Assembly: GCF_025244865.1 (NCBI RefSeq)
Contig: NZ_CP104272.1
Span: 744,001 to 808,000, forward strand
Length of the DNA stretch: 64,000 nucleotides
Source: Arthrobacter sp. zg-Y1110
GTDB taxonomy: Bacteria > Actinomycetota > Actinomycetes > Actinomycetales > Micrococcaceae
Direction: 5' to 3'
The translations under genes and the position numbers were made by a program. The notes beneath the pieces were generated by a model. The model did no database searches and was not told the DNA's origin. It was given only the letters and a program-made list of their open reading frames with translations. Shown piece by piece: positions 7,925 through 23,182 of this stretch (the stretch's first letter is position 1; each line of letters begins with the position of its first letter).

Positions 7925-8359
7925 GTGGGGCTGTTCAGCGCTGCACCGATTGTGGAGAAGAGGGAACAATGGACCACGGGGCAACCGCCGCATGCGGTTA
8001 TGGCTGCGCTGACGGGTGCCTTCACATCCCATGGTGAGGACGTCCGCCGGGACGAGTCCCGGCTGGTTGTGCACGTCGGCTCGTACTGGACGTACCGGAT
8101 GCTGGGCACCTTCTTCGCCGCAGGCCGTGCCAGCGTGCCGCTGACCCTGGCGTTCAGCATCTCCCCGTCCGGCTCCGGGACGGCCATCGACGTCCACGGC
8201 TACGATACGTACGGGTTCCGGATGGGCAACGGAACCCTCTTCGACGTCCCGGTGTTGTTTAACTACCGGTTGGAGGAATTCCTCAGCTATGCAGCGGGGG
8301 TGGTGGGCATTCGCCGGCCCGTTTCAGGTGCCGTTCCCGTCCCGCCGTTCCACCTTTAG
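7925..8359 (+). CDS. Uncharacterised protein, second of two tandem paralogs
   Basis: 144 residues, starting at a GTG after an AAAGGGG ribosome binding site. It begins (reading GTG as Met) MGLFSAAPIVEKREQW and follows its neighbour at 7342-7779 along its whole length, with conserved GEDVRR, DTYGFRMGNG and RLEEFLSYAAGV. Conservation of the whole fold suggests both copies are functional. Its stop overlaps the convergent HAD gene by 4 bases. No known family. Confidence 0.75.
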   Translation: MGLFSAAPIVEKREQWTTGQPPHAVMAALTGAFTSHGEDVRRDESRLVVHVGSYWTYRMLGTFFAAGRASVPLTLAFSISPSGSGTAIDVHGYDTYGFRMGNGTLFDVPVLFNYRLEEFLSYAAGVVGIRRPVSGAVPVPPFHL

Positions 8360-9162
8360 GCCCGCACCAGTCCCAGCATCCGCCGGACAATTTCTTCCCC
8401 GGCCAGGATCCCGCGCGCCTCGGTGACCTGCAGATGCGGCTCGAAGTAGCCGGCGTCGTCCAGTTCACCGTGTGCGGGACGGAACGCGATGTCGGCGCAC
8501 TCCAGCATGGGCCGGTCCAGCAGGGAATCCCCGGCCGCGATGATGCGGTCCGCACCGATCCGGCGGGCAACCTCGGCCACGGCCTGCTGCTTGGTGACAG
8601 GTGTGGGCACGCAGTAGAGCTTGCGGCCCTGCAGCGACACGGTCCAGCCGCGTGCATCGCACCAGTCCTCCAGAGCCAGCAGGAACTCGCCGGGGAGGGC
8701 ATCCCGGTCCACAATCGCGTACGCGAACAGGTCCTCAGCCGAACGAAGCTTCAGAATCCATTCATGGAACTCAGGACGGCCCAGGTAAGCCTCGATCTCG
8801 CCCAGCGGCGCGCACCCGGACGTGACGAGGCCACGCACGGAGGCCTCCCAGTCGGCGTCGGGTTCTCCATGGTGCAGGATGACGCCGCCGTTGGTGGTGA
8901 CGGCGTATTCCGGCGTAGGCCCGGGCAACTGGATGCGGCGGTACTGGGCCACGGTCCGCGTGGTGACGGGGACAAACACGGAGATCTCCGCGGCGGAGAC
9001 GAGCAGCGCCTCGGCGGCACGGGTCATGAAGGACAGCGGCTTACCCTCATAGACTTCGGCCACCACCATGGCCGGAGCCAGGGCGTCCTCGGTGTTCAGG
9101 AACAGGGCATTCGCGGAGTAGATCAGGGTGCGGTCCAGGTCGGACGCGAGCATCGTCTTCAC
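8356..9162 (-). CDS. HAD-superfamily phosphatase of the Ter module
   Basis: 268 residues starting at a GTG that overlaps the stop of the upstream gene (GTGA). HAD motif I is ASDLDRTLIYS, motif II is the Thr in VPVTTRT, the motif III Lys is in VTKQQA, and motif IV is AAGDSLLDRPML, so all catalytic residues are present. The cap insertion is of the Cof/sucrose-phosphatase type (HAD-IIB). In Ter gene clusters such phosphatases are proposed to work on a nucleoside-like metabolite made by the neighbouring phosphoribosyltransferases. This is the last gene of the minus-strand operon. Longer starts would overlap the preceding gene in another frame. Confidence 0.85.
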   Translation of the reverse strand: MKTMLASDLDRTLIYSANALFLNTEDALAPAMVVAEVYEGKPLSFMTRAAEALLVSAAEISVFVPVTTRTVAQYRRIQLPGPTPEYAVTTNGGVILHHGEPDADWEASVRGLVTSGCAPLGEIEAYLGRPEFHEWILKLRSAEDLFAYAIVDRDALPGEFLLALEDWCDARGWTVSLQGRKLYCVPTPVTKQQAVAEVARRIGADRIIAAGDSLLDRPMLECADIAFRPAHGELDDAGYFEPHLQVTEARGILAGEEIVRRMLGLVRA

Positions 9163-11921
9163 GCGTCGGCCCCCGGAACGGCTGCAGCGGCACCGGCGGC
9201 AGCAACCGCCCGGCCGTCCGCGCCCACGGCGCCGGCGGTGAACCGGGGGTGGATCAGGCCCACGCAGCTGAACGGCAGGTCCGGCACCTCCTCCACGGGT
9301 ACGCCGCGCTGTTCGGCCAGCAGCAGCACGTGCGCCACGTCCTCCAGCGCCCCGGGATGGACCAGCACCTTCCACGGCACCCGGCGCAGCAGCACGCGGG
9401 TGGTCTCGCCGACGCCGGGCTTCACCAGGTTCACGTTGTAGATGCCGTATGCCTCGCTCAGGCCCTCCACTGCCTGCCAGCCCACCCAGGTGGGGGTCCG
9501 GTCCGCAGTTGCGAGCGACACCGCAGCAGCCTCCGCTTCGTGGCGTACGTCGTCGAAGTGCCGTTCGATCGCCGCCAGGAAATCCCGGGACACATCGGCG
9601 CCGGCGAGATGGGCGTAGAACTTCGCGCCGTGGAAATCCTCCGGCGCAATCAGGTCCTTGTTGAAGACCGTGCGGGACACCAGCCCGGAGACGGTCGAGT
9701 TCAGGCAGGCCGACGGAATCAGGTAATCCTCCCGTGTGCCGAACAGCTCCACGGAATGGCCGGGGTCGGCCAGCACCGCAAGCTCGGAGGAGAACCGTAC
9801 GCCGTCGGTTGCTTCGAACTTATCCAGCGCCGCGGTCAGCTCCCGCGTGATGGCGCCCTTGCCGGTCCAGCCGTCCACGAACAGGATCCGCTCGGGGGAG
9901 TAGGTCCGCGCCAGGTAACGCAGCGCCGTTTCATCCATTCCCACGCCGCGCACAATGCTCATGGTGTAGTGCGGCAGGTCCAGCCCGTGCATCCGCTGCG
10001 CCCAACGGCGCATGAGGATTCCGATGGGCGTCCCGGCCCGGGCGAGCGAGACCAGCACCGGCTCGGGGTTCCGGGCGGCCAGCGCCAGTTCGGTCACGGT
10101 GCCGACAGCGGACGCGACCCGGGGCGCGGAACGGCGCAGGGCCTCCTCATACAGGTCCTGGTACTGCGCCGAGGGCAGGTACTCCATCGGCAGCGACTCG
10201 GCGTAGTTCGCCCCGCCGGACTGGATGGCGGCCTCCCGCTCGGCGGTGGGGGCCTCCAGCTTGGCGTCGCGCAGGTCCTTCAGCAGCCAGGTCACGTCTT
10301 CGGGCGCGTAGGACCCGAACTCCGGGCCCGTCAGCGGCACGGCCGCAGCAACGGAACCGGTCCAGTCCTCGGGTGCGGGGACATCGGCCGGCAACAGTAC
10401 GACGACGACGGCGCCGGTCACCGTGCGCAGCGCCTCGGTCACGCTGCCCGGGCCGGTGATGGATGCAGGGTCGGTGCCGGGTTCGGGCAGGAGCACAATG
10501 CTGTCGAAGCCGGTGTTCGAGGCGTTGCCGTCGACGGCTCGGCGGGGTCCGACGTTGTAAGCGTGCCGCGGGCCGGGACCGTCCTCGGTGACATCGTGGC
10601 TGGCGAAGTCCACGGCATTGGCAATGGCGTAGTCCGGCCGGTCAATCGGCACGATGGGGGAGCGGGTGGTGGTGGAGAACCGGACCGAGGCGGCCGGCAG
10701 GGCCTCGGCCACGGCGTTGGCGATGGTCAGCGGCACGTGGATGAATTCCTCGCAGCCCAGGACCAGCACCGATTCCGCCGAAGCGGGCAGCGCGGCGGAG
10801 ATGCGGGAGGCAACGAATGCCAGGCTCTCAGCCGAGACTGCTCCGGGCAGGGCATCCGGCAGGGTGCCGAGGTATTCGGAGGAGATGCCGGCACGGTTGC
10901 CGAAGCGGTCACTGCGCAGGCTGCGTGCGGCACTGGAGTAATCCAGCACGGTCACGGTGCCGGGTTCGGAAACGGCAGCGGACAACGCGGCCGGCTCAGC
11001 GCCGGCCGGCTCAGTGCCGGCCGGCTCGTGGGTGGACAGCCCGCCGATCAGTTCCTCGGCCCGGGCCAGGATGTCCTCGCCAAGTTCGATGCTGCCGGTC
11101 CCCAGCGCGACCACGCGGATGGTGCAGCCCAGCGCGTCCGCCAGCTCGTCGAAGCGGGCACGGTCCGCGTCGGAACGCAGGTCGATCAGCGAGGCCACCA
11201 CGTAGAGCGGATGCGGTGCGGCGGCATGCAGTTCGGTGATGGTGTTGATGACTGTTGCGCCGGTGCTGAGCTCGTCGTCGACCAGCACCACGGGGGCGGG
11301 GCTGTTCAGCAGGGCGGGATCCACGGGCAGCAGCCGGTGCGAGGTGGCGTGTGAATGGGCTTCCTCGAAGGCGCCGTACGCCACCGCACCCTCCGGTGCG
11401 TGCCGGGTGGAATGGATGTAGTAGGAGCCCAGCATGTCGGCGACGAGCCGGCCCAGACCGGTGGCGGTCTCCGCGTAGCCGATGGTCACCACTTCGGGAT
11501 GGGAGACGGGCAGGTCCCAGAGCCGTTCGCGGGCATACTGCAGCCGGGTGCGCGGTGGGCGGGGCGCGGCGTGCCGGCCGCCGTCGTCGTTCGCCCGCCT
11601 GGACCCGGCCGTACCGTCGCCGTCCTCGAGCACCGCCGAAAGGTCGGCTGCGACGCCGCGCAGCACGGCGTCGTCCACCTTGCTGCCGAGTGCCGCTCCG
11701 GCCAGTGCGCCGAGCAGCTCTCCGGCCGCCAGGACGAGCGCCGGTTCGGTGGGTACATGTTTGGCCAGCACGCGGGACACGAGCAGGTGCGCGCGGCGGG
11801 GGTTGCGGCGCAATGCCAGTCCCACCAGGTCCTCTACCGGCAACAGTGCTGCAGGATCAGAGGTGATCCGCACTCCCAGGGCCTCGTTCACAAATCCGCC
11901 GGTCCAGGGGTGGTGCTTCAA
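9159..11921 (-). CDS. Fused Ter-type phosphoribosyltransferases (PRTase-TRSP + StiP/PELOTA)
   Basis: 920 residues from a TTG that overlaps the upstream stop codon (TTGA). The family's N-terminal WTGGFVNEALGVR lies just inside this start. Domain 1 (about 1-290) is a phosphoribosyltransferase with EEAHSHATSH and PRPP loop VVLVDDELSTGATVINTI (211-228). The TRSP domain (about 320-510) shows its namesake motif at 419-422. Domain 3 (about 535-800) is the StiP/ComF-like phosphoribosyltransferase, with NYAESLPMEYLPS, VSLARAGTPIGIL and PRPP loop FVDGWTGKGA (681-690). The C-terminus (about 845-895) looks like a PELOTA-type RNA-binding domain. These parts are often encoded by separate genes. They are proposed to make a nucleoside-like stress metabolite. 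A frame extending upstream to 12629 is only the shadow of the lyase gene. Confidence 0.87.
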   Translation of the reverse strand: MKHHPWTGGFVNEALGVRITSDPAALLPVEDLVGLALRRNPRRAHLLVSRVLAKHVPTEPALVLAAGELLGALAGAALGSKVDDAVLRGVAADLSAVLEDGDGTAGSRRANDDGGRHAAPRPPRTRLQYARERLWDLPVSHPEVVTIGYAETATGLGRLVADMLGSYYIHSTRHAPEGAVAYGAFEEAHSHATSHRLLPVDPALLNSPAPVVLVDDELSTGATVINTITELHAAAPHPLYVVASLIDLRSDADRARFDELADALGCTIRVVALGTGSIELGEDILARAEELIGGLSTHEPAGTEPAGAEPAALSAAVSEPGTVTVLDYSSAARSLRSDRFGNRAGISSEYLGTLPDALPGAVSAESLAFVASRISAALPASAESVLVLGCEEFIHVPLTIANAVAEALPAASVRFSTTTRSPIVPIDRPDYAIANAVDFASHDVTEDGPGPRHAYNVGPRRAVDGNASNTGFDSIVLLPEPGTDPASITGPGSVTEALRTVTGAVVVVLLPADVPAPEDWTGSVAAAVPLTGPEFGSYAPEDVTWLLKDLRDAKLEAPTAEREAAIQSGGANYAESLPMEYLPSAQYQDLYEEALRRSAPRVASAVGTVTELALAARNPEPVLVSLARAGTPIGILMRRWAQRMHGLDLPHYTMSIVRGVGMDETALRYLARTYSPERILFVDGWTGKGAITRELTAALDKFEATDGVRFSSELAVLADPGHSVELFGTREDYLIPSACLNSTVSGLVSRTVFNKDLIAPEDFHGAKFYAHLAGADVSRDFLAAIERHFDDVRHEAEAAAVSLATADRTPTWVGWQAVEGLSEAYGIYNVNLVKPGVGETTRVLLRRVPWKVLVHPGALEDVAHVLLLAEQRGVPVEEVPDLPFSCVGLIHPRFTAGAVGADGRAVAAAGAAAAVPGADA

Positions 11922-13108
11922 TTCATGCTCGCTTCCAGAAGGTCTACATAGGTGATGTCGGGGGCTGCGACGCCGAAGGCAGCGGCCCGGACGAGGGTGG
12001 AAGCTGCCCACGCCTGATGCGGTTTCATTTCGTTCATCTTGTTGCGGTAGGGCGACGCCGCGGCGCCGCCCCCGGCCTCGCCGGAGATGTGGAGGGCATC
12101 CAGGTACGCCTCGTGGCTGATCACGGACATGGCATGGACCAGGGGAACGTGCGAGGGGTGGATGACGGTCTTGCCGAGCAGTCCGTTGGCCTGGTCCAGT
12201 TCGATTTCGCGGATCAGTCCGTCCAGGTTTGCCGTCAGCAGCCGCTGGCGCAGGCCCAGCTCGTCGGCGTCCGCGAAGGGGGAGGACCGAAGCATCGGAC
12301 GCAGCAGCCGCTCGCCGGAGCTGTAGTGTTCCCAGACCGGGCCGCTGATGACAAAGCCCCCCGGCCTGCCGAGCATGTTGACGATGTCCCCGATCACCGC
12401 GGAGACCACCTTGACGTCGTAAATGGTGAGGTCCCGGGAACGGCGCAGCCCGTAGGCGCTGGACATGTCCGTGGCGCCGATCCGTACGGACAGGATGTCC
12501 GGCCGGTTCGCTTCCAGCACCTCGAAGATGCCGCCGAGGGTATGCGTGCGGGTCTCGGCGTGGATCATCAGCGGTGACTCGAGGATCGGCATGATCCGCA
12601 GCGGCCGGGCACCGGGATCGGCGGCCCACCGGGCGTCGTTCACGGTGTGTAGGGCGTCGAGGAAGCGCTGGGCAGTGCCGGAGGTGTTCTCGAACTTCGG
12701 AATCACGAACCCGGTGAGGACGTCCAGCGTTTGTCCGCCGCGCTCGGCAAGGCTCAGCAGCTGTTCGGGCGTGCGGACCCGGATGAAGAGCATCAGGTCT
12801 TCGGGGTCGCCGGCTTTCCGGATGCCGGCAGCGTGCAGTTCGGCGAGGGCTTCCACCACGTTGGTCTCTGCGGCCGGCACCTCGGCGTCGGCAATGGAAT
12901 CCTCCAGGCAGATGACCATGCTGACGGCCCCGCGGGCAGCCTGTTTGCGGATGTCCTTGACCAGGTCCGGCCGGGTTGCGGGGCAGTAAAGCGTGGCTCC
13001 GAGCGCGGTCGCCAGCAGGCGGGCGTCGGAATCGAGGGTCAGTTCCTGCGGTGCGAGGTGGAACAGGCGGGCAGTTTCCCGCTCGCTGAGGTAGGAGAAA
13101 TGGCGCAC
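11918..13108 (-). CDS. HpcH/HpaI (CitE-like) aldolase/lyase of the Ter module
   Basis: 396 residues with a TIM-barrel CitE-like fold. VICLEDSIAD carries a likely metal/substrate acid, and RIMPILESPLMI and SVRIGATDMSSAYGL match later barrel motifs. It is longer than citrate lyase beta subunits (about 290), as expected for the Ter-associated carbon-carbon lyase group. It is probably translated together with the fused phosphoribosyltransferase (4-base overlap) and would act in the same metabolite pathway. The substrate is unknown. Confidence 0.85.
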   Translation of the reverse strand: MRHFSYLSERETARLFHLAPQELTLDSDARLLATALGATLYCPATRPDLVKDIRKQAARGAVSMVICLEDSIADAEVPAAETNVVEALAELHAAGIRKAGDPEDLMLFIRVRTPEQLLSLAERGGQTLDVLTGFVIPKFENTSGTAQRFLDALHTVNDARWAADPGARPLRIMPILESPLMIHAETRTHTLGGIFEVLEANRPDILSVRIGATDMSSAYGLRRSRDLTIYDVKVVSAVIGDIVNMLGRPGGFVISGPVWEHYSSGERLLRPMLRSSPFADADELGLRQRLLTANLDGLIREIELDQANGLLGKTVIHPSHVPLVHAMSVISHEAYLDALHISGEAGGGAAASPYRNKMNEMKPHQAWAASTLVRAAAFGVAAPDITYVDLLEASMN

Positions 13109-13111
13109 CGG

Positions 13112-14026
13112 TTACCGCCCCTGGTAGGGGAGGCGGGTGGTCATGGTGAAGCCGAAGGCCTCCCAGATGGCTTTGAACTCCATGCCGTACGGCAGTTCCT
13201 CGGCCCGGAGTTCAAGCACGTCGTCAATGCGGATCACGGAGAGCGCGTAATAGCTGCGGTGGCCGGCTTGCGCCGGGATGGTCACCGATTTGCCGTTGTA
13301 GACCCCCACGCTCATGGGCTGTTTCGGCTTCGGGAAGAACAGTGCCCGGCGCAGCATTCGAACATGGCGCAGCGGGACCAGCGCGAGGTCATCTTCATAG
13401 CCGACCAGCGGCCGGTTGCCCGGAGCCTGGACCTGGACGCCGTCCAGGTCTTCGGGCCGGAACTCGCCGGCGGAAATGGAACCGGTGCTGTATCCCGGGC
13501 CTTCCCACACCGCACGCACGGTGCCGGCAACCACGAGGCTGCCCACGGCGGATTCCATGGGGGTCAGGCGTACTACCGGGTTCTGCCGGTCCAGGCTGCG
13601 CAGCTCGCCCATGCCCGGTGCAGGGAAGAGCCTGTTGTGCAGGGGTTCCACCCGTACCGGTTCGGAAGTGCGGGAGGACGACGTCGGCCGTGGCGCTGCG
13701 GGGGCAGCGGCACGGCTGCTGGCCGCCTCCGCCTTGGGGGACAGGCCCAGCGAAAGCGAGGGGGAGACCGACGGTGCGGGCTGCTGCCGCGGCGGCGGAG
13801 ACAGCGAAAGGGACCCCGGAGCCGGAGCCGGACTAGCCGGGGTGGCCGGCCGGGCGGCGGGCGCGGAAGTTCGCGGCGCGGAAGTGCTCGGCGCTGCGGC
13901 CGGTGCCGGCGTCGTTCGGGGTGCGGGGGCAGCCTGGGGCGGCACCGGAGCCGCAGCGCGCGGCTTGACCCGGCGGCTCAGGAAGGGAAGGTCGGTGCGG
14001 ACGGCCGACGAGCGGTTGACGGCCAT
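13112..14026 (-). CDS. Ter-operon protein with Ala/Pro-rich N-terminus, unknown function
   Basis: 304 residues. Residues 1-125 are a low-complexity Ala/Pro/Ser linker. From about 130 to 304 there is a compact domain with many strands (for example GSLVVAGTVRAVWEGPGY and YYALSVIRIDDVLELRAEEL). A linker ahead of a folded domain is common in Ter-cluster proteins, whose N-terminal part is often a TerD domain, but none is visible here. It sits between a TerD gene and the lyase gene with gaps of 3 bases, so it is surely part of the operon. Function unknown. Confidence 0.7.
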   Translation of the reverse strand: MAVNRSSAVRTDLPFLSRRVKPRAAAPVPPQAAPAPRTTPAPAAAPSTSAPRTSAPAARPATPASPAPAPGSLSLSPPPRQQPAPSVSPSLSLGLSPKAEAASSRAAAPAAPRPTSSSRTSEPVRVEPLHNRLFPAPGMGELRSLDRQNPVVRLTPMESAVGSLVVAGTVRAVWEGPGYSTGSISAGEFRPEDLDGVQVQAPGNRPLVGYEDDLALVPLRHVRMLRRALFFPKPKQPMSVGVYNGKSVTIPAQAGHRSYYALSVIRIDDVLELRAEELPYGMEFKAIWEAFGFTMTTRLPYQGR

Positions 14027-14029
14027 CGC

Positions 14030-14581
14030 CTAGAGATCGAATCCGAAGTCGGCAGCCAGTCCGCGCAGGCCGGTGGTGTACCCCTGGCCCAGGGCGCGGA
14101 ACTTCCAGTCGGCGCGGTGCCGGTACAGCTCGCCGAACATCATGGCGGTGATGCTGTCCCGGTTCGCCGAGGGCAGGTCGAACCGGACCAGTTCCCCGCC
14201 GTTGGGCCGTGCCACCCGGATGTAGGCGCTGCGCACGGCGGCGAAGGTGCCGGGTCCGCGCATCTCCGGGTCGGCGTAGACAGCGAAGACAATCTTGGAG
14301 ACCGCATCCGGCACCCGGGACAGGTCGACGTCGATCTGCTCGGTGTCGTCGTCGCCCTCGAACACGACGGAACCCTCCGGGCTGGCGATCTGGTTGAAGA
14401 AGACCAGGTGCTCGTCGGAGAGGACCCGGCCGTCGGAGCCGCACAGCAGGGTCAGCGGAACGAGTTCGGCTGCGGGCCCGCGGCTGGGGATCACGTCCCA
14501 GCCCAGTCCCACCAGGACGGAGCTGAGGCCGGGGTTTTCGGCGGTGAGGGCGGCGTTGGCGCCGGCTACCAGGGTTCCCAT
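14030..14581 (-). CDS. Divergent TerD-family protein
   Basis: 183 residues with the TerD fold: VLVGLGWD near the N-terminus, FFNQ in the middle, and FRALGQGYTTGLRGLAADFG at the end. The usual calcium-site pattern GDNxTGxGxGDDE of the other three TerD copies is reduced here to EGDDDTEQIDVDL, so calcium binding may be weaker or altered. It starts at the base where the preceding gene ends (1-base overlap). Likely a cytoplasmic stress protein acting with TerC at the membrane. Confidence 0.87.
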   Translation of the reverse strand: MGTLVAGANAALTAENPGLSSVLVGLGWDVIPSRGPAAELVPLTLLCGSDGRVLSDEHLVFFNQIASPEGSVVFEGDDDTEQIDVDLSRVPDAVSKIVFAVYADPEMRGPGTFAAVRSAYIRVARPNGGELVRFDLPSANRDSITAMMFGELYRHRADWKFRALGQGYTTGLRGLAADFGFDL

Positions 14582-15096
14582 CAGCGGTCCCCGAAGGTCA
14601 GGGAGGAGGGGGAGAACTTGTCATCGAGGAACCGTCCGTGGGTGGACAGCTCGGCAATGGCGCCGGTGCGGACCTGGTTCTCCAGGTCCCGGGCAATGCC
14701 TTCCAGGATGGTGAGTTGGTCAACGAGCAATGTGGTGGCCTCTGAACTCTCGGTCCGCTCCCGGTCGCTGAGGGCCACGTAGGCACGCAGGGGAGTAGGG
14801 AGGTAATTGGTAATGATGGCGTTGAGCAGCACGCGCTGCTCGGTGGAGGCGCCGTGGCTGCCCACGTATTCCACCAAAGGCGCCAGGATGTCGTCGATCT
14901 GCCGGACCATGGAGGACACCAGGGTCGGCAGGGCGGCGCCGGCCCTGCGCACGGCCCTGCGCAGGTTTTCCAGGGACTTCACGGTCTCCTGGTGTTCGGC
15001 GTCAGGGCCCGACGGCGTGGCCGCGGACAGCGCCGGTGGCGGTTCCGGCTCCGGCGAGTTGCCGAAGAGGGAACCGAAGAACCTGCCTACTGCCAT
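14581..15096 (-). CDS. Ter-operon helical protein of unknown function
   Basis: 171 residues, predicted almost wholly helical after a short Pro/Ala-rich start (MAVGRFFGSLFG). The patterns SLENLRRAVRRAG and LLVDQLTILEGIARDLENQ suggest a coiled coil or helical bundle. The N-terminal FFGSLFG might touch the membrane. It lies between telA and a TerD gene. Position suggests a partner of TelA or TerD, but I recognise no family. Confidence 0.7.
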   Translation of the reverse strand: MAVGRFFGSLFGNSPEPEPPPALSAATPSGPDAEHQETVKSLENLRRAVRRAGAALPTLVSSMVRQIDDILAPLVEYVGSHGASTEQRVLLNAIITNYLPTPLRAYVALSDRERTESSEATTLLVDQLTILEGIARDLENQVRTGAIAELSTHGRFLDDKFSPSSLTFGDR

Positions 15097-15134
15097 GGCC
15101 GGCTCCTACCCACCGGTGCTGTCCTGCCCGGCAT

Positions 15135-16328
15135 TTAGCGGGACTCGCTCTGGCGGGAGCGCTCGAGGTACGGCTTGGCCTGCGTGATGGTGGATTCCAG
15201 GGACTTCACGGTCCCTTCCATGTTGCGGGCTGCTTCCGAACGGAACGTGTCGATCGCGTCCATGGTCTGGTACACGTTGTCGAACGCCTTCTGCAGGGTT
15301 TCCACGCTCACGCCGGAGCTGGAGGCCTGCTGGTGGATCCGGGCGGTCTGGTCCTTGAGCATTTCGCTGGTGCTCAGGATCATGTTGTTCGTGGTGGTGT
15401 TCACCGCGTCGATCTGGTCCAGCACCATCTTCTGGTTGGCCAGGGCCTGGGCCACGATCACTGCGGTGCGCAGCGCGGAAATGGTGGTGGTGCGTGCCCG
15501 CTCCACGCCCTTGATCAGTTCCACGTTGTTCTTGCGGATCAGGTCCATGGCGAGGTATCCCTGCACGGACACGGCCAGCTGGGTGAGGATGTCCTGGCGG
15601 CGCTGGCGGATGGGGAAGAGCACATCCGCTTCCAGGGCGTTGGCCTGCTCAATCTGCCCGGAGTTCTTGAGCTTGTCCACCTTTTCGACGCAGGCCGCAT
15701 CCAGGGACTCGGCGAGCACGGAGTATTCGCTCAGGGTCTGCATGGTCTTCCACAGCTCCACCTTTTCCCCGGCGAGGGAGGCGTTGTCCTTGAGCAGTTC
15801 ATCCTGGCCGGCCATCAGGGCCTTGATGATCTTGTCCAGCTGGACCTGCGCGGACTCGTACTTCTGGAAGTACTTGGCCAGCTTGTTGCCGCCGGGGATG
15901 ATGCCGAGGATCTTGCGTCCGGTGCCCAGGTTCGCCTGGTTCGGGGTGAGGTCCTCGACGGTGCTGCGCAGGTCGCCCAGGGTGACGGCGACCTTCTTCT
16001 GTGCGTCATTGCCGGACTTCTTCGCCCCGGCCACGGAGGTGGAGGAACGGTCCAGCAGACGGGTGGAGTATCCGGCGGACTGCACCATTTCCGCACCGGC
16101 CAGCTTGTTGATGGAATCCACCTGGGCGGTGAACTCCGGGCTGCGGGCGTCCAGCTTGGAGACTTCCTCCATGAAGGACTTGGCCTGGGCGGCGATTTCG
16201 ACGCGGCGTTCCTCCGGCACCGGAACCATGCCCGGAGCGCTCTCGGGAGCGACCGGAGCGGGCGGTTCCGGAGCTTTCAGCACCAGGGCGGCTTCGGTGG
16301 CGTCCGGGGGAGTCAACGGTGTGGTCAT
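15135..16328 (-). CDS. telA: TelA-family toxic anion resistance protein
   Basis: 397 residues from the ATG at 16328 (an AAAAGG site lies upstream), the usual TelA/KlaA length. The body is long helices with family motifs such as LGIIPGGNKLAKYFQKYESAQ (about 145-165) and a helical end with SSGVSVETLQKAFDNVYQTM. TelA proteins are cytoplasmic or membrane-associated and occur with TerC/TerD in stress clusters; their biochemical role is still unclear. A 30-odd-residue disordered Pro/Ala head precedes the domain. A hairpin at 16363-16399 separates it from the TerD gene upstream. Confidence 0.88.
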   Translation of the reverse strand: MTTPLTPPDATEAALVLKAPEPPAPVAPESAPGMVPVPEERRVEIAAQAKSFMEEVSKLDARSPEFTAQVDSINKLAGAEMVQSAGYSTRLLDRSSTSVAGAKKSGNDAQKKVAVTLGDLRSTVEDLTPNQANLGTGRKILGIIPGGNKLAKYFQKYESAQVQLDKIIKALMAGQDELLKDNASLAGEKVELWKTMQTLSEYSVLAESLDAACVEKVDKLKNSGQIEQANALEADVLFPIRQRRQDILTQLAVSVQGYLAMDLIRKNNVELIKGVERARTTTISALRTAVIVAQALANQKMVLDQIDAVNTTTNNMILSTSEMLKDQTARIHQQASSSGVSVETLQKAFDNVYQTMDAIDTFRSEAARNMEGTVKSLESTITQAKPYLERSRQSESR

Positions 16329-16362
16329 GGTCCAGCCTTTTCTTGTGAGCTGCGTATACGGA

Positions 16363-16399
16363 TGCGGGGAGTGTCCCGGCCTGCGGAACACTCCCCGCA
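16363..16399 (-). terminator. Hairpin between a terD gene and telA
   Basis: TGCGGGGAGTGT and ACACTCCCCGCA form a perfect 12-base stem with a 13-base loop, lying in the gap before telA. With no T-run and genes in the same direction on both sides, it may be a partial terminator or an RNA-processing site that lowers expression of telA and the biosynthetic genes relative to the terC/terD genes. Confidence 0.5.
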
Positions 16400-16421
16400 G
16401 GGTGTAACTGAAAAAGCGAGT

Positions 16422-17003
16422 CTAGCTGAGCTGCACGCCGAAATCGGTGGCGATGCCGGCCAGGCCGGTGGCGTAGCCCTGGCCGACGGCCTTGAACTTC
16501 CACTCGCCGTTGTTGCGGTACACCTCGGCGAAGATCATGGAGGTCTCCGGCGCGGCGTCCTCGCTCAGATCGAAGCGGACAATTTCGCTGTCGTTGTCCT
16601 GGTTGATGACGCGGCAGTACGCTCCGCGGACCTGGCCGAAGTTCTGGTTACGAGCCTCCGCCTGGTCGATGGAAACGACAATGACCACGCGGTCGACGTC
16701 GGCGGCCATCTGCGTCAGGTCGATCAGGATCTGCTCGTCATCACCTTCGCCGGCGCCGGAACGGTTGTCGCCCAGGTGGGTGACGGAGCCGTCCTTGGCA
16801 GCGGGCTGGTTGTAGAAGATGAAGTCGTCGGAGGAGCGCACCTTGCCGTTGGCTGCGATCATCAGCGCCGAGGCATCCAGGTCGAAGGGTTCACCCGTGG
16901 TGGTGCGCGGGTCCCAGCCCAGGCCGACTACGGCTTTCTGGAGTCCGGGATCGGTTTTGGTGAGGGAAAGGTTGTTGCCCTTGGTGAGGGTCAGTCCTGC
17001 CAT
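16422..17003 (-). CDS. terD: TerD-family calcium-binding stress protein (copy 3)
   Basis: 193 residues from ATG 17003, which follows AAGGAG. The family signature is complete: LTLTKGNNLSLTK at the start, AVVGLGWDPR, DLDASALM, the calcium loop GDNRSGAGEGDDEQILIDL, and the end GQGYATGLAGIATDFGVQL. It is about 75 per cent identical by eye to the next copy at 17032-17613, pointing to a tandem duplication. TerD proteins bind calcium and are linked to resistance to tellurite, colicins and phage. Confidence 0.93.
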   Translation of the reverse strand: MAGLTLTKGNNLSLTKTDPGLQKAVVGLGWDPRTTTGEPFDLDASALMIAANGKVRSSDDFIFYNQPAAKDGSVTHLGDNRSGAGEGDDEQILIDLTQMAADVDRVVIVVSIDQAEARNQNFGQVRGAYCRVINQDNDSEIVRFDLSEDAAPETSMIFAEVYRNNGEWKFKAVGQGYATGLAGIATDFGVQLS

Positions 17004-17031
17004 GCTGTTCAGCTCCTTGTAGACGTGGGGA

Positions 17032-17613
17032 TTAGTCGAGGGCGATGCCGAAGTCGGTGGCAACCCCGTACAGCCCGGACGCGTAGCCCTGGCCGATGGC
17101 GCGGAACTTCCACTCTCCGCGGTTGCGGTAAATCTCGGCGAAAATCATGCAGGTTTCCGCTGCGGCGTCCTCACTGAGGTCGTAGCGGACCACCTCTGCG
17201 TCGGTGTCCTGGTTGACCACCCGGCAGTACGCATCGCGCACCTGCCCGAAGTTCTGGTGCCGCGCTTCGGCCTGGTCGATGGAGACCACAATGACCACGC
17301 GGTCGACGTCGTCGGTCAGGATGCTGAGGTCAATCAGGATCTGCTCGTCGTCGCCGTCGCCCTGGCCGGTGCGGTTATCGCCCAGGTGGACCACCGAGCC
17401 GTCCTTGGCGGACAGCTGGTTGTAGAAAATGAAGTCGTCCTGGGAGCGCACCTTGCCGTCGGCTCCGAGCAGCAGTGCGGAGGCGTCCAGATCGAACGGA
17501 TCTCCGCTGGTGGTGCGCGGATCCCAGCCCAGGCCGATCAGGGCCCGTTCCAGGCCCGGGTCAGCCTTGGTGAGGGAAAGGTTGCTTCCTTTGGAAAGTG
17601 TCAGGCCGGACAA
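17032..17613 (-). CDS. terD: TerD-family calcium-binding stress protein (copy 2)
   Basis: 193 residues, starting at a TTG six bases after AAGGAG. It has LTLSKGSNLSLTK, ALIGLGWDPR, DLDASALLL, the calcium loop GDNRTGQGDGDDEQILIDL and the usual C-terminus GQGYASGLYGVATDFG. It is nearly colinear with the gene at 16422-17003. The 28-base gap between them also keeps similar spacing, in line with a recent duplication. Part of the Ter operon. Confidence 0.93.
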   Translation of the reverse strand: MSGLTLSKGSNLSLTKADPGLERALIGLGWDPRTTSGDPFDLDASALLLGADGKVRSQDDFIFYNQLSAKDGSVVHLGDNRTGQGDGDDEQILIDLSILTDDVDRVVIVVSIDQAEARHQNFGQVRDAYCRVVNQDTDAEVVRYDLSEDAAAETCMIFAEIYRNRGEWKFRAIGQGYASGLYGVATDFGIALD

Positions 17614-17641
17614 GGTGCTCTCCTTACGGACGGGCGGGTGG

Positions 17642-18232
17642 TTAGAGCGAGCGGGCTGCGGTGGGAATCAGGTCCATTACGGTACGGCCCTGGGCGCGTT
17701 CGCCGATGGCCTTGAAGCTCCAGCCGGAACCTTCGCGGCCCACCTTGGCCATAACCATGGCCGTGTGGGTGCCGGCGTCGGTCAGCTGGTAGCGGGCGAT
17801 TTCCGGGCTGCCGGGCGTGGAGTCGTCGATCAGGCGGCAGAAGGCGTTCTGCACCTGGTCGAAGGTCTGCCGGCTGTAGCTGGAGATCACGAACACGATG
17901 TTCTGCACAGCGGGGGAGACGGCTGCCAGGTTCACCAGGATGACCTCGTCGTCGCCCTCGCCGGCGCCGGTGAGGTTGTCGCCGGTGTGCTTGGTGGAGC
18001 CGTCCTTGCTGGCGAGCTGGCCGTACCAGACCTGGTCAACAGCGTTGCCGTTGGCGTCGAAGAAAATGGCCGAGGCATCGAGGTCCACTTCCGCGGTCTT
18101 CTTGCCGCCGAACAGGCCGCGCTTGACCGGGGCAGCGGAATCCCAGCCCAGTCCCAGTCGGGTCTTGCTCAGCGCTCCGCCGTCCTTCTTCGTCAGTGAC
18201 AGCGACTGACCTTTTTCCAGGCTCAGGCCCAT
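17642..18232 (-). CDS. TerD-family protein (copy 1, TerZ-like)
   Basis: 196 residues with LSLEKGQSLSLTKKDG at the start, LGLGWD, DLDASAIFF, the calcium loop GDNLTGAGEGDDEVILVNL and IGERAQGRTVMDLIPTAARSL at the end. A small insertion (KRGLFGGKK, about residues 36-44) and the different C-terminus set it apart from the other copies and make it nearer the TerZ/TerX side of the family. It starts 12 bases after terC stops, the first TerD copy in the operon. Confidence 0.9.
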   Translation of the reverse strand: MGLSLEKGQSLSLTKKDGGALSKTRLGLGWDSAAPVKRGLFGGKKTAEVDLDASAIFFDANGNAVDQVWYGQLASKDGSTKHTGDNLTGAGEGDDEVILVNLAAVSPAVQNIVFVISSYSRQTFDQVQNAFCRLIDDSTPGSPEIARYQLTDAGTHTAMVMAKVGREGSGWSFKAIGERAQGRTVMDLIPTAARSL

Positions 18233-18244
18233 GATTCTCCCTCG

Positions 18245-19357
18245 TTAGTTTGTGTAGACAGGATCTTTTGATGCACCGGCGGACTTCGCTGCGCGCTTGT
18301 TGCGCACAATCGAGGAGGTCAGCGACGCGAGGATGAAGACCACGCCGATCAGGCCGGTGATGACCTCGTTGATTTCGATCTCGATGGTGAGCAGGAGGAT
18401 GGTCGCCAAGGCGCCGATGGCCCAGTGGGCACCGTGGTCCAGGTAAACGAACTCGTCCAGGGTGCCCTGCTTCACGAGGAACACGGTCAGGGACCGGACG
18501 AAGATCGCACCGATGAGGCCAAGGCCCAGGGCAATGATGATCGGGTCCGAGGTGATGGCGAAGGCGCCGATGACGCCGTCGAAGGAGAAGGACGCGTCAA
18601 TGACTTCCAGGTAGAGGAAGAGCATGAAGGCGGCCTTGCCGGTGGCCTTCACCAGGGCGCCGTTGCCGGACTTCGGGGCACGTGCCTCGACGTCGTCGGC
18701 ATCGAAGTCCCCGTCGCCGTCGACGTCGAACATGTCACCCAGGCCGGTAACCAGCAGGTAGGTGATCAGGCCGGCGGCGCCGGCAACGAAGACGTCAGTG
18801 GTGTGGGAGGGGTCCGAGAGGGCACCGGCGGCCAGCAGGGCACCGAGGCCGACGATCAGGGAGGCGCCGTTGATCTTGCCGACCTTGGCGAACGGGGTTT
18901 CCAGCCAGCGCAGCCAGCGGATGTCGCGGTCTTCGAACATGAAGTCCAGGAAGATCATCAGCAGGAACAGGCCGCCGAAGGAGGCGATCTGCGGGTGGGC
19001 TTCATGCAGGAGGTAGCCGTAGCTGCCGGGCTCGTCCGGATCGCCCTTTTCGAGGGCCAGCTGCAGGGCTTCGATCGGGTTGATGCTGGCGGTGACGCCC
19101 ACAATCACCAGCGGGAAGACGATGCGCATACCAACGACGGCGATGAGGATGCCCACGGTGAGGAACATCTTCTGCCAGAAGGGGCTCATTTTTTCGAGGA
19201 TGCGCGCGTTGACCACGGCATTATCGAAGCTAAGGCTGATTTCGAGAACGCCCAGGATGGCGCAGAGGATGAGTGCCTCTACCCCGCCGTAGAAGAACGC
19301 CGTTACCAGCGCGGCGGCCGTTATTACAAACGACCAACCGAAAGTTTTGAAAAACAC
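18245..19357 (-). CDS. terC: TerC/DUF475 integral membrane protein
   Basis: 370 residues, starting at GTG 19357. About nine membrane helices. Two conserved acidic motifs lie within membrane segments, EISLSFDNAVVNARIL (about 39-54) and EVIDASFSFDGVIGAF, as expected of TerC proteins, which are thought to export or sense metal ions. In a loop at 211-222, DVDGDGDFDADD has every coordinating position of an EF-hand loop, a striking feature in an operon of calcium-binding TerD proteins. First gene of the operon. An AAGGAG lies about 13 bases upstream, slightly far. Confidence 0.9.
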   Translation of the reverse strand: MFFKTFGWSFVITAAALVTAFFYGGVEALILCAILGVLEISLSFDNAVVNARILEKMSPFWQKMFLTVGILIAVVGMRIVFPLVIVGVTASINPIEALQLALEKGDPDEPGSYGYLLHEAHPQIASFGGLFLLMIFLDFMFEDRDIRWLRWLETPFAKVGKINGASLIVGLGALLAAGALSDPSHTTDVFVAGAAGLITYLLVTGLGDMFDVDGDGDFDADDVEARAPKSGNGALVKATGKAAFMLFLYLEVIDASFSFDGVIGAFAITSDPIIIALGLGLIGAIFVRSLTVFLVKQGTLDEFVYLDHGAHWAIGALATILLLTIEIEINEVITGLIGVVFILASLTSSIVRNKRAAKSAGASKDPVYTN

Positions 19358-19668
19358 TCTGCTTGCAGCTCCTTCAGTTCCTGCGCGCAGCCGGTGGGGG
19401 CGGAAAGGGCAAAAACTAGGTAGAGGATGGCTTCATCCGAATCGAATTAGGCTTCAGTATGTCGCACCCCGGACACCGCGGGCAACTACCGGCGGTGACG
19501 TTCGCGGAGAGGGTAGAGCCAGGGGAGTGCAGGGCGCCAGAGCGGCGGCCGACTGCGGCAGTGGGTTGAGTCCCTTGACGAGGCGGCGGCGATTGGGCGG
19601 CGGCCCTCGTGGTCTGAAAGAATAATGGAAAGCCTGCTTACTCAGGCACCCGTTTGAAGGAGGACTGC
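19358..19668. promoter_or_regulatory. Divergent control region of the ter operon and an LRV gene
   Basis: 311 bases without a gene. It should hold the ter promoter on the minus strand and a promoter for 19669 on the plus strand. GGCTTCA occurs at 19429-19435 and 19450-19456, exactly 21 bases apart (two helical turns), in the least GC-rich part of the region. I see no clean -35/-10 pair, so the promoters are not placed. The stretch 19480-19610 is GC-rich and shows no structure I can interpret. Confidence 0.4.
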
Positions 19669-19977
19669 ATGCAGGACGAAAAGTTTGGGAACGGAAATCC
19701 GGAACCGGTTATGAACATTCCGGCAGCAGACGTCGTCAACGGCGGAGCATCCGCCGCTCCGCCCGCGCAGGTGGACCCCGCCGAGGTTGCCATCCTTGCC
19801 GAGGCCGAAGATCCGGGTACCGACCCGCTCCGGCTGCAGGAACTGGCCACCGACTATCCGCTGGCCCGCCCCGCGGTGGCCGCCAACCCCGCTGCCGGCC
19901 CGGAGCTGCTTTCCTGGCTCGGCGCACTTGGCGACGCCGGCGTGAACGAAGCACTGGCGCGCCGCGGCGGCCGCTAG
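19669..19977 (+). CDS. Small protein with variant leucine-rich domain
   Basis: 102 residues from ATG 19669, which follows AAGGAGG. The first 40 residues are flexible. The rest (LRLQELATDYPLARPAVAAN ... LLSWLGALGDAGVNEALARR) is a variant leucine-rich repeat unit of helical turns. The same unit ends the membrane protein at 25807-27969. No signal peptide is seen, so it is likely cytoplasmic. Function unknown; such modules usually bind proteins. Confidence 0.75.
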   Translation: MQDEKFGNGNPEPVMNIPAADVVNGGASAAPPAQVDPAEVAILAEAEDPGTDPLRLQELATDYPLARPAVAANPAAGPELLSWLGALGDAGVNEALARRGGR

Positions 19978-19991
19978 CCTCCACTCCACCG

Positions 19992-20047: not shown

Positions 20048-20806
20048 CTAGATCTCGGCGACGGCCACCAGCGGCAACGTAGGCGTGGAGGACCCGCCCG
20101 CAGGCTCAACCGTCAGGGCCACGGCTCCGGCCTTGGCGACGTCGCCGCTGAGCCAGACGCTGACGTCCCCTCCGGAAAAGTGCGTATCCGGAATGGGAGT
20201 CTCGCCCTCGAGCAGCCAGAGCTGGTACTCCCGTCCCTCGCCGGGATCGGGCAGGGTGTCCGCGACGAACAAGGCGGCATCCTCCTCCCGCGAAACAACC
20301 AGGGTGGCCGCTTGGCCGTTGACGTCGACGCGCTGCGTGGCGACATCCGGTGCGGCCAGCAGCCGGGTTTCCCGGTCCTGTTCCTGAGCTGCCTGCTGTT
20401 CCTGCTCGCGCTGCTCCGACTGGACCCCCAGGTTCCAGCCGGCCAGGCCGATTCCGGGGAGCAGGACGGCAGCCGCTGCGGCGGCCAGGAGCCGACGCCC
20501 GCGCCGTCGTCGTCGTTCGTCCAGGGAGACGATGACGGCGGCCGGCCCCGTCCGGGGGCCAGGCAGCGGCTGGGTGCCGTGGATGGAAGACAGCACGGAG
20601 CTGCGCAGGGCAGGCGGGGGAGTCTGGGCCGTCTCCGCAGCAAGGCCGGCGGTGACTTCGGCATATTCGGCGACCTCCGCCTGGCAGCGGGGGCAGTCCG
20701 CCAGATGCTGTTCGAATTCTTCGCGCTCGGCCGGCTCCAGGGCGTCCACGGCATACAGCGGGGCGAGCTCATGGAGGTGCCCGGCGTTCTGGCTGTGCTG
20801 GTTCAT
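20048..20806 (-). CDS. rskA: Anti-sigma factor RskA
   Basis: 252 residues. The N-terminal anti-sigma domain carries the zinc-type motif His34-x3-Cys38-x2-Cys41 (HLADCPRC). One membrane helix lies at about 104-125 after a run of Arg, and the outside domain (about 135-252) has the RskA C-terminal pattern, including EYQLWLLEG. It should hold SigK at the membrane until a signal triggers proteolysis. It overlaps sigK by 4 bases (ATGA), the usual coupled pair. Confidence 0.93.
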   Translation of the reverse strand: MNQHSQNAGHLHELAPLYAVDALEPAEREEFEQHLADCPRCQAEVAEYAEVTAGLAAETAQTPPPALRSSVLSSIHGTQPLPGPRTGPAAVIVSLDERRRRRGRRLLAAAAAAVLLPGIGLAGWNLGVQSEQREQEQQAAQEQDRETRLLAAPDVATQRVDVNGQAATLVVSREEDAALFVADTLPDPGEGREYQLWLLEGETPIPDTHFSGGDVSVWLSGDVAKAGAVALTVEPAGGSSTPTLPLVAVAEI

Positions 20807-21420
20807 GACTGTCCCCCCAATGCCGAGCGAAGCTTCTTCAACCCGTCACGGATCCGTGCTTTGGCTGTGCCCAACGGGATATCCAGGCGCAGGGCAACCT
20901 CCTGATAGGTGAATCCCTGGTAGTAGGCCAAGGCAACGGCTTCGCGTTGGAGCGGGGTGAGGGTGCTCAACCCGTTCTGCACCTCGTGGGTTTTCATCCC
21001 CTGCTCCACTTCCTGCCATGTCTGGTCCACTGGCGTTCCCGTCCGTTGGTCCTCATAGGTCTGTTCCCGCTCCCGTTCACGGGCCACCTGGCGCACCCGG
21101 TCCACTGCCCTGCGGTGGGCAAGGGTGCATAACCATGCCAGCACTGTCCCGCGCGTCGGGTCGAAACGTGCGGACTGCTGCCAGGCCATCAGATAGACCT
21201 CCTGGACAACTTCGGCCGCGATTTCCGGAGACCTGGTCACCCGTACCGCCAGCCCGTACACCTTGGCAGAGGTGGCGTCATACAGGGCCGCGAAACTGGT
21301 TTCGTCACCTTCGCCGCAGCGGCGCACCAGATCGGCGAGCCCGACCCCTCGGTCCTCCTGCCGGTCTTCCGGTGCAGGCCGAGCAGTGAAATCCGTCGGG
21401 CCGGTTCCCGAGTCAGTCAT
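20803..21420 (-). CDS. sigK: ECF sigma factor SigK
   Basis: 205 residues from ATG 21420, which has GGGAG about 5 bases upstream. Region 2 includes EVVQEVYLMAWQQSARFDP, and region 4 is a helix-turn-helix around YQGFTYQEVALRLDIPLGTA. This matches the SigK group, which directs envelope and secreted-protein genes under control of RskA. A longer in-frame start at 21501 has a poor ribosome site. A SigK-like promoter 120 bases upstream on the same strand suggests autoregulation. Confidence 0.92.
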   Translation of the reverse strand: MTDSGTGPTDFTARPAPEDRQEDRGVGLADLVRRCGEGDETSFAALYDATSAKVYGLAVRVTRSPEIAAEVVQEVYLMAWQQSARFDPTRGTVLAWLCTLAHRRAVDRVRQVAREREREQTYEDQRTGTPVDQTWQEVEQGMKTHEVQNGLSTLTPLQREAVALAYYQGFTYQEVALRLDIPLGTAKARIRDGLKKLRSALGGQS

Positions 21421-21540
21421 GGGCTCCCACAGGTCATCCCTTCGACGACGGCCCCCGGCCGCGGCAACGGACGGGGAGATGTTCGCTGAGAACACTGTCA
21501 TACTTTCGCACCGCGCAGATACCGAGTCTCCATACCCAGT

Positions 21541-22525: not shown

Positions 22526-23182
22526 ATGACGGCATCCCGCCCCGGCCGCCGCGCAGGACTGATGTCCTGCGCGGCGGCCGCGCTTCTCCTGCTCTCCGGA
22601 TGCAGCGGCACGGCCGCGCCGGAGACCGGAGCACCGACAACCACCACAACGACGGCGGCTGCCCCGGCTGCCACGGCCGCCGCGTCAAGCCAGCCTGCAG
22701 CCCCGCAGGCTGACGCTCCTCCGGTGCTTTCCCCCTCCGCGCCGGTGTCCTTATCTATCCCGGCCACCGGCACCGAATCCCGGCTCCTGCATCTTGGACT
22801 GCGGGAGGACGGTTCCCTCGAGGTTCCGCCGGAGCCTCCCGGTTCGCCGGCGAGCTGGTACACGGGCTCGCCCACCCCGGGGGAACGCGGCCCCGCCGTG
22901 CTGCTGGGGCATGTCAACGCCACCGGCGGCGGCGAGGGAGTCTTTGCCGGCCTGCGGAACCTGTCGCCCGGCGACCGGCTCGAAATTGCCCGGGAAGACG
23001 GGAGCACTGCGGTCTTCTCGGTAGACCGGGGAGAGCAATACGGCAAGGACGAGTTTCCTACGCTCGCGGTGTACGGCAATACCGCCGGTGCAGAGCTGCG
23101 CCTGATCACCTGCGACGGTTTCGACCCTGCCACCGGAACCTTCGACGACAACTACGTTGTCTACGCCAGTCTCAGCCGGTGA
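22526..23182 (+). CDS. Class F sortase, lipobox at the N-terminus
   Basis: 218 residues. The sortase core is at about 75-218, with catalytic His129 in VLLGHVN, Cys196 in LRLITCDG and a nearby Arg192. The short domain without extra modules fits actinobacterial class F. The N-terminus has a hydrophobic stretch ending LLLSGC (Cys26), a plausible lipobox, so it may be held by lipid rather than a membrane helix. A Thr/Ala/Pro linker joins this to the core. It should join secreted proteins, such as the CHRD protein upstream, to the wall. Confidence 0.9.
   Translation: MTASRPGRRAGLMSCAAAALLLLSGCSGTAAPETGAPTTTTTTAAAPAATAAASSQPAAPQADAPPVLSPSAPVSLSIPATGTESRLLHLGLREDGSLEVPPEPPGSPASWYTGSPTPGERGPAVLLGHVNATGGGEGVFAGLRNLSPGDRLEIAREDGSTAVFSVDRGEQYGKDEFPTLAVYGNTAGAELRLITCDGFDPATGTFDDNYVVYASLSR

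Follow-up and report, generated by a model that had tools for sequence, protein, structure and literature searches.

An actinomycete-type Ter stress operon of Arthrobacter sp. zg-Y1110 with fused phosphoribosyltransferases, a TelA-HEL pair and no ATP-grasp gene

Organization of the operon

The 64,000-nucleotide (nt) stretch of Arthrobacter sp. zg-Y1110 DNA analyzed here (positions 744001-808000 of the 3.5 Mb contig NZ_CP104272.1; hereafter the window, to whose positions all coordinates refer) carries a Ter stress operon, in which eleven tightly packed minus-strand genes run head to tail from 19357 down to 8356, with an intergenic spacing of -4 to +38 nt, the exception being the 93 nt ahead of TelA. 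A preliminary description of the sequence had all of these genes in the right order, strand and extent, and noted gaps or overlaps of a few bases for most of their length, but it spoke of ten genes, whereas its own list amounts to eleven. The genes and motifs referred to below are:

19444..19488, minus strand: promoter-like block TTGCCC - 18 nt - CATACT upstream of terC (17 upstream regions aligned)
18245..19357, minus strand: integral membrane protein of terC type, DUF475 group, 370 amino acids (aa), GTG start (Pfam DUF475 6.2e-125, TerC 5.9e-19)
17642..18232, minus strand: TerD copy 1, 196 aa (Pfam TerD 160.5 bits)
17032..17613, minus strand: TerD copy 2, 193 aa, TTG start (genome search with PF02342, 262.8 bits)
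16422..17003, minus strand: TerD copy 3, 193 aa, ATG start (Pfam TerD 267.6 bits, run on 16422-17006)
15135..16328, minus strand: TelA, 397 aa, ATG start (Pfam TelA 3.1e-85)
16263-16286, minus strand: LVLKAPEP in the N-terminal tail of TelA
14581..15096, minus strand: HEL, 171 aa, a helical neighbour of TelA whose C-terminal tail reads SPSSLTFGDR
14590-14604, minus strand: SLTFG of the HEL tail
14030..14581, minus strand: divergent TerD, copy 4, 183 aa (Pfam TerD 172.8 bits; acidic loop shortened in the alignment)
13112..14026, minus strand: LNK, 304 aa, a Pro/Ala-rich linker with SLSLG followed by a predicted TerA/TerD-superfamily domain at about 141-297
13745..13759, minus strand: SLSLG in the linker of LNK (residues 90-94)
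11918..13108, minus strand: CitE/malyl-CoA-lyase-like TIM-barrel carbon-carbon (C-C) bond lyase, 396 aa (Pfam C-C_Bond_Lyase 2.5e-110)
9159..11921, minus strand: fused PRTase_2-TRSP-StiP-PELOTA_1 protein, 920 aa (Pfam)
11253-11291, minus strand: loop VVLVDDELSTGAT in the PRTase_2 part
9852-9881, minus strand: StiP loop FVDGWTGKGA
8356..9162, minus strand: HAD-IIB-type phosphatase, 268 aa (S6PP 21.3 bits; trehalose phosphatase chains)

TerC and TerD-family genes are present together, as expected of a Ter stress system. The three full TerD copies, TelA and the divergent TerD of the preliminary description all hold up on Pfam or PF02342 matches, and its terC passes the TerC cut-off (69 bits vs 27.8), although DUF475, at 417 bits, fits this protein better. 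The best start of the phosphoribosyltransferase (PRTase) gene is a TTG at 11921, which gives a 4-nt overlap with the lyase gene (an alternative GTG at 11891 is possible), and that of the HAD gene is a GTG at 9162, overlapping the PRTase gene by 4 nt as well. The block TTGCC(C)-18-CATACT sits 99-128 nt ahead of the terC start codon, has both its TTGCC and its CATACT kept in 11 close Arthrobacter sequences of the 17 aligned, and is promoter-like, resembling a housekeeping promoter; the eleven genes probably form one transcript.

Conservation and surroundings

StiP was found in 12 of the 28 other genomes of the genus, in 15 of 59 relatives (the genome under study counted) and in 93 of 394 genomes of the class, a tally that takes in the genome under study and one match below the family cut-off. 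Of the 106 StiP-bearing genomes besides this one, the locus stretches (L-numbers; G-numbers denote genomes) were read from 60, namely 14/14 relatives and 46/92 class genomes, which amount to 13 Micrococcaceae and 47 other class members, some of the stretches being short contigs. As the gene set is shared by the 12 StiP-positive genomes of the genus, the operon is not a chance assemblage. The TerC-to-HAD order is identical among the Arthrobacter maps listed in the gene-order comparison (L021-L025, L027, L028, L030-L032 and L066-L072), and the stretch L026 is without TerC and one TerD. All four enzyme kinds stand together in 13/13 Micrococcaceae and 43/47 other class stretches, three of the incomplete ones (L079, L104, L123) ending at contig edges. 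One of the mapped loci, L032, comes from a record titled Sporosarcina beigongshangi, whose 66.9% GC Ter operon resembles the Arthrobacter ones, a possible case of mislabelling or contamination.

For an empty-site comparison, two flank proteins were searched in 18 genus genomes, 16 of them without StiP: the thiolase matches were 72-74% identical, vs 89% in one carrier, and the sigma factor matches lay far from the thiolase matches or on other contigs. A pair of an extracytoplasmic function (ECF) sigma factor and an RskA-type anti-sigma factor is encoded just upstream on the same strand (20048-21501; Pfam confirms both). The pair is a possible regulator of the operon, a role that is not supported, no shared promoter having been shown and the housekeeping-like block preceding terC instead. 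Directly in front of the operon, a small divergent plus-strand protein of ~100 aa was read by eye at about 19670-19990, and the neighbourhood also encodes a protein with an Excalibur calcium-binding domain and a sortase (1620-2513 and 22526-23182). Rfam and PADLOC scans gave no matches.

The enzyme module

The lyase and PRTase domains all score over their Pfam cut-offs (lyase E 2.5e-110, StiP 2.2e-101, PRTase_2 1.4e-59, PELOTA_1 6.4e-34, TRSP 1.8e-23), and the 920-aa protein spans PRTase_2 (32-276), TRSP (366-487), StiP (536-785) and PELOTA_1 (812-891). The HAD protein is weaker, with S6PP at 21.3 bits (cut-off 20.3), NCBIfam HAD-IIB subfamilies matched below their cut-offs and trehalose phosphatases as the nearest solved chains (8.2e-9). 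Sequence searches against the PDB returned no match for the PRTase protein and only malyl-CoA lyase, at 16.9 bits, for the lyase. Clustering of PRTase_2/TRSP, StiP-PELOTA, a C-C lyase and a (weakly matched) HAD protein is that of the published nucleoside-metabolite module, so that the module proposed in the preliminary description is recognized here; its family assignments stand for the lyase and the PRTases, which fall in Ter-specific Pfam families, while the HAD protein, placed only weakly by Pfam, is of HAD-IIB type. Reportedly, the proposal of such a module in Ter systems goes back to Anantharaman et al. 2012.

The PRTase_2 part is of type I, with the loop VVLVDDELSTGAT and its DD pair recurring in 58/60 loci; this we take to be the phosphoribosyl pyrophosphate (PRPP) loop. 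PRTase_2-TRSP and StiP-PELOTA share a single frame in 13/13 Micrococcaceae stretches and in 23/46 of the remaining ones that have both, whereas two relatives (L030 and L032) have them in separate frames; the fusion is common and not special to this genome. For the StiP half, the model predicts a PRTase fold and an L7Ae/L30e-like domain, which runs against the “cysteine protease” name; both readings of StiP-PELOTA are already in print, as far as the accessible portions of PMC7824862 and PMC5571608 go. No report of StiP biochemistry was found by a full-text literature search whose reach excluded most subscription papers.

Going by the Pfam and plasmid-record names (“cysteine protease StiP”), the fused protein might instead be a stress protease, its neighbours being incidental, and the Cys in SACLNSTVSGL is invariant in 13 aligned sequences and found in 58/61 loci by a looser pattern; nevertheless, the predicted fold is that of a PRTase, the loop is of the PRPP type, and the protein co-occurs with a lyase, a second PRTase and a HAD protein, which makes this alternative very improbable. 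Somewhat more credit is due to the alternative that the enzyme set, instead of producing a free small molecule, modifies RNA (e.g., a tRNA base), with the PELOTA/L7Ae-like domain guiding a base exchange of the PRTase type; base exchange on RNA is known for other enzymes. The motif of the L7Ae/L30e-like domain is conserved in 60/60 loci, and a model published for an E. coli homologue places kink-turn RNA on PELOTA_1 (PMC5571608, in the part accessible). However, a separate lyase and phosphatase suit a soluble small molecule better, and a tRNA scan of the window found no tRNA gene; on balance, we consider RNA modification unlikely.

The notion that the enzyme module is separable from Ter was dropped, since all 22 of 22 genomes of one family of stretches (f36), where about 10 kb on either side of the enzymes is free of TerD, turned out to possess TerD genes on genome search, located 12-19 kb from the enzymes on the same contig in those compared (G095, G128, G144, G155, G197, G226, G404).

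The missing ATP-grasp gene

The preliminary description saw no ATP-grasp gene here, and the genome searches agree: neither the Raoultella protein nor PF15632 found a Ter-type ATP-grasp in this genome, the only PF15632 match being below the cut-off and inside a 1113-residue frame taken for CarB. The comparison with other actinobacterial Ter operons that it called for was run, and a single one of the 60 other StiP-bearing actinomycete stretches turned out to have the gene. With the Raoultella ATP-grasp as a query, a single frame was matched in the actinomycete stretches (L121, 47 bits). An iterated profile, run like the motif filter below over 11,101 open frames, matched only the Raoultella locus L063 and L121, which were among the sequences building it and hence provide no independent control; its breadth is shown by its reaching CarB (L005) at 1e-8 in the second round. 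Genome-wide, the Raoultella protein matched 42/394 class genomes, the genome under study not among them, and 23 of the 93 StiP genomes (two tables compared by eye); as far as broken contigs (e.g., in G125, G244 and G381) allow a distance to be measured, it was matched within 10 kb of StiP only in G130 (the genome of L121), the other matches lying far away or on another contig.

Among plasmid records, 2,566 match the PRTase protein of the window and 2,502 the Raoultella ATP-grasp, numbers counted as two separate sets; ATP-grasp looks like a regular part of gammaproteobacterial plasmid Ter loci, in L063 heading the series ATP-grasp, PRTase, HAD-type protein, StiP, lyase. In a locus from a Rhizobium plasmid (L064), the stretch contains PRTase_2, StiP and HAD-like frames but lacks both an ATP-grasp and a lyase gene. 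The statement that the pathway usually includes an ATP-grasp gene consequently suits gammaproteobacterial plasmids, while actinomycetes as a rule lack the gene. As the gene is so rare across the actinomycete StiP stretches, its absence leaves no hole in this particular operon; it is, on these sequence comparisons, real and typical of the class, i.e., a lineage trait, and ATP-grasp would not serve to define the actinomycete form.

LNK, HEL and a shared SLxLG peptide

LNK, a “linker-domain unknown” in the preliminary description, is indeed present at 13112-14026 and can now be read as a divergent TerA/TerD-type protein; it matches no Pfam family. Its C-terminal domain (~141-297) is modelled as a TerD-type beta-sandwich (AlphaFold2 and VIA-align), and the linker is of low confidence in the model. 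On its own, Foldseek had no row for LNK with an E-value of 0.001 or less, and a direct LNK-TerD profile match was non-significant in three attempts. TerA, brought into the comparison since weak matches pointed there, would link the two (LNK-TerA 86.5%, E 4.6e-6; TerA-TerD 92.2%, E 5.9e-7; pairwise E-values). According to the model, LNK thus consists of a disordered linker and, following it, a TerA/TerD-superfamily domain that has diverged strongly.

For HEL, no Pfam family was matched by more than one of 11 members; its own profile matched 50/394 class genomes, and a HEL-like frame adjoins TelA in 23/27 TelA loci. From its position beside TelA, HEL is a candidate for the XpaC family; no XpaC match was listed for any of the 11 at E-values of 10 or below, with filters that drop most weak matches. 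A second HEL-like match in the same genome (G000:C1:260218-260679, E 4.9e-9) lies ~0.5 Mb off, without a second TelA match.

A short SLxLG-type peptide recurs in these proteins, with the patterns for LNK and HEL having been defined after part of the data had been seen, and with the expectations quoted coming from residue shuffling, which ignores kinship, so that they are not probabilities. In LNK, 24 [SGATN]LxLG copies occur in 17 distinct linkers vs 0.3 expected, every linker having at least one and at most five despite being fast-changing (frames L067, L073 and L077, lacking an anchor, were left out). A filter for at least two copies in a Pro/Ala-rich context returned 3 of the open frames, all of them LNK, and misses L031, which has three copies. 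The strict HEL pattern is found in 18/24 distinct tails vs 0.87 expected. Among TelA tails (two without methionine dropped, that of L104 too short and scored as a miss), the motif falls within the first 20 residues in 23/43 distinct ones vs 3.0 expected, a second motif, LxLxxPxP, in 31/43 vs 5.4, and either in 35/43 vs 8.0.

The copies carried by LNK, by HEL and by roughly half of the TelA N-termini read from actinomycetes may be taken as a docking peptide; as TerD itself starts with GLTLxKG in the alignment, docking of a strand type is suggested. There is nearly an even chance, however, that they are separate features instead, such as end caps, degradation tags or low-complexity drift. The HEL copy is C-terminal, a place for tags; the patterns were written post hoc on related sequences, so shuffling overstates significance; and the TelA of the window has the second motif and not the first. 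In the 19 later-fetched HEL loci, all of family f36, the strict pattern matched 3/9 distinct tails vs 0.15 expected, the remaining six reading RRSDLD or RRSDLDx(x), and SLDLG-like linker copies are limited to 5/19 TerD frames beside HEL (three each in L172, L175 and L179, two in L170, one in L174). Against separate features speak the occurrence of one motif at the TelA N-terminus, the HEL C-terminus, inside LNK and in some TerD linkers, the presence of as many as five copies in linkers that change fast, and its recurrence in the later-fetched loci, where f36 TelA often starts MS[DN][SA]L[DN]LG, and in all three proteins of the distant locus L104 (TelA SDLDLGSS, HEL SDLDL, LNK ASLDLGS and VSLDLSA). 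In four genus genomes without StiP (L157-L160), TelA-HEL pairs occur elsewhere, with tails SNPLDLS and [GD]GFDFG and no TerD match in the roughly 4-kb stretch, and therefore the peptide is not limited to enzyme-module loci. No report of the motif was found by a full-text literature search, the reach of which left out most subscription papers and Anantharaman 2012.

Relation to other Ter systems and proposed mechanism

The operon is a genuine instance of an already described kind, in an actinomycete form having fused PRTases, a TelA-HEL pair, a cryptic TerA-like protein and no ATP-grasp. With the gammaproteobacterial plasmid Ter system (L063, Raoultella NZ_MZ753459), with which a Klebsiella locus can be grouped on the accessible text of PMC8115787, it shares TerC, TerD copies, PRTase_2-TRSP, StiP-PELOTA, the HpcH/CitE-like lyase and a HAD-type protein. 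The plasmids, however, have ATP-grasp, keep the PRTases unfused in genes of their own, are arranged in two divergent runs of genes and also have TerB, TerA, TerW and DUF4236, and L063 is without a TelA match, whereas the Arthrobacter operon has one gene run, fused PRTases, TelA-HEL, LNK and no ATP-grasp. Streptomyces-type clusters (L029, Streptomyces cellostaticus; family f37, L086-L096) share the lyase, the fused PRTase_2-StiP-PELOTA, HAD, TerC, TerD and, within the stretch, the absence of ATP-grasp, but their stretches are without TelA-HEL and have a TerA-like gene in place of LNK. The f36 and L104 clusters likewise have HEL and TerD-type proteins after TelA, with the SLDLG-type motif; the f36 enzyme module, however, is not fused and lies away from the TelA-HEL locus, and f36 has TerD-with-extension frames at the place of the TerD4 plus LNK of Arthrobacter.

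We thus favour, as the likely reading, an actinomycete-type Ter stress operon in which membrane and sensor parts are joined to enzymes for a nucleoside-type metabolite. By sequence, the membrane part is the TerC/DUF475 protein, and the proposed sub-membrane and sensor parts are TelA, HEL, the four TerD and the TerA/TerD-like LNK. In the enzyme set, with its four domain kinds in three genes, PRTase_2, its PRPP loop intact, would attach PRPP to a base-like ring; the PRTase domain of StiP, whose loop is modified and which comes with the L7Ae-like domain, may perform a second PRTase-type step or sense or carry a nucleotide; the CitE-like lyase would form or cleave a C-C bond in the ring precursor or side chain; and the HAD phosphatase would strip a phosphate, leaving a nucleoside-like compound. 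With no ATP-grasp ligation, the product would be the un-ligated core, or would be ligated by an unrelated enzyme. TerD-family proteins would sense the compound or a metal, with TelA building a sub-membrane structure, both being published proposals (PMC7824862, in its accessible part), and the parts might be docked to one shared receptor through the SLxLG-type peptides that HEL, LNK and roughly half of the TelA tails read carry.

Several points weigh against this reading. The nucleoside-like compound is itself a published guess and still hypothetical, and a distant ATP-grasp or another ligase may be encoded elsewhere. GDSxxD is missing in 8/59 HAD proteins, and L107 has space for a HAD gene with none seen. 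The exact StiP loop is absent in 11/61 StiP proteins, all from stretches of one family, the StiP model has a mean predicted local distance difference test score of 62.5, and its top Foldseek rows are pyridoxal phosphate enzymes at a TM-score of about 0.2. The block upstream of terC was not reported by a sigma-70 consensus scan.

A more speculative proposal, to be held tentatively and with rather less confidence than the separate-feature alternative above, is that SLxLG is a common docking code for TelA, HEL and TerA/TerD-linker proteins, and that actinomycetes make an un-ligated Ter metabolite. If true, a strand-like peptide, similar to the GLTLxKG start of TerD, would be received by a shared groove, perhaps the sheet edge of a TerD-family protein, and multivalent linkers would build up a layer of TelA and TerD beneath the membrane. 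Stress genes of the Ter type are widespread, their function not being agreed upon; in the actinomycete form, the pathway as proposed would come down to three enzyme genes and no ATP-grasp step, which may make the product easier to hunt for, and the shared peptide offers a concrete, mutable hypothesis for how TelA, HEL and TerD-family proteins might assemble.
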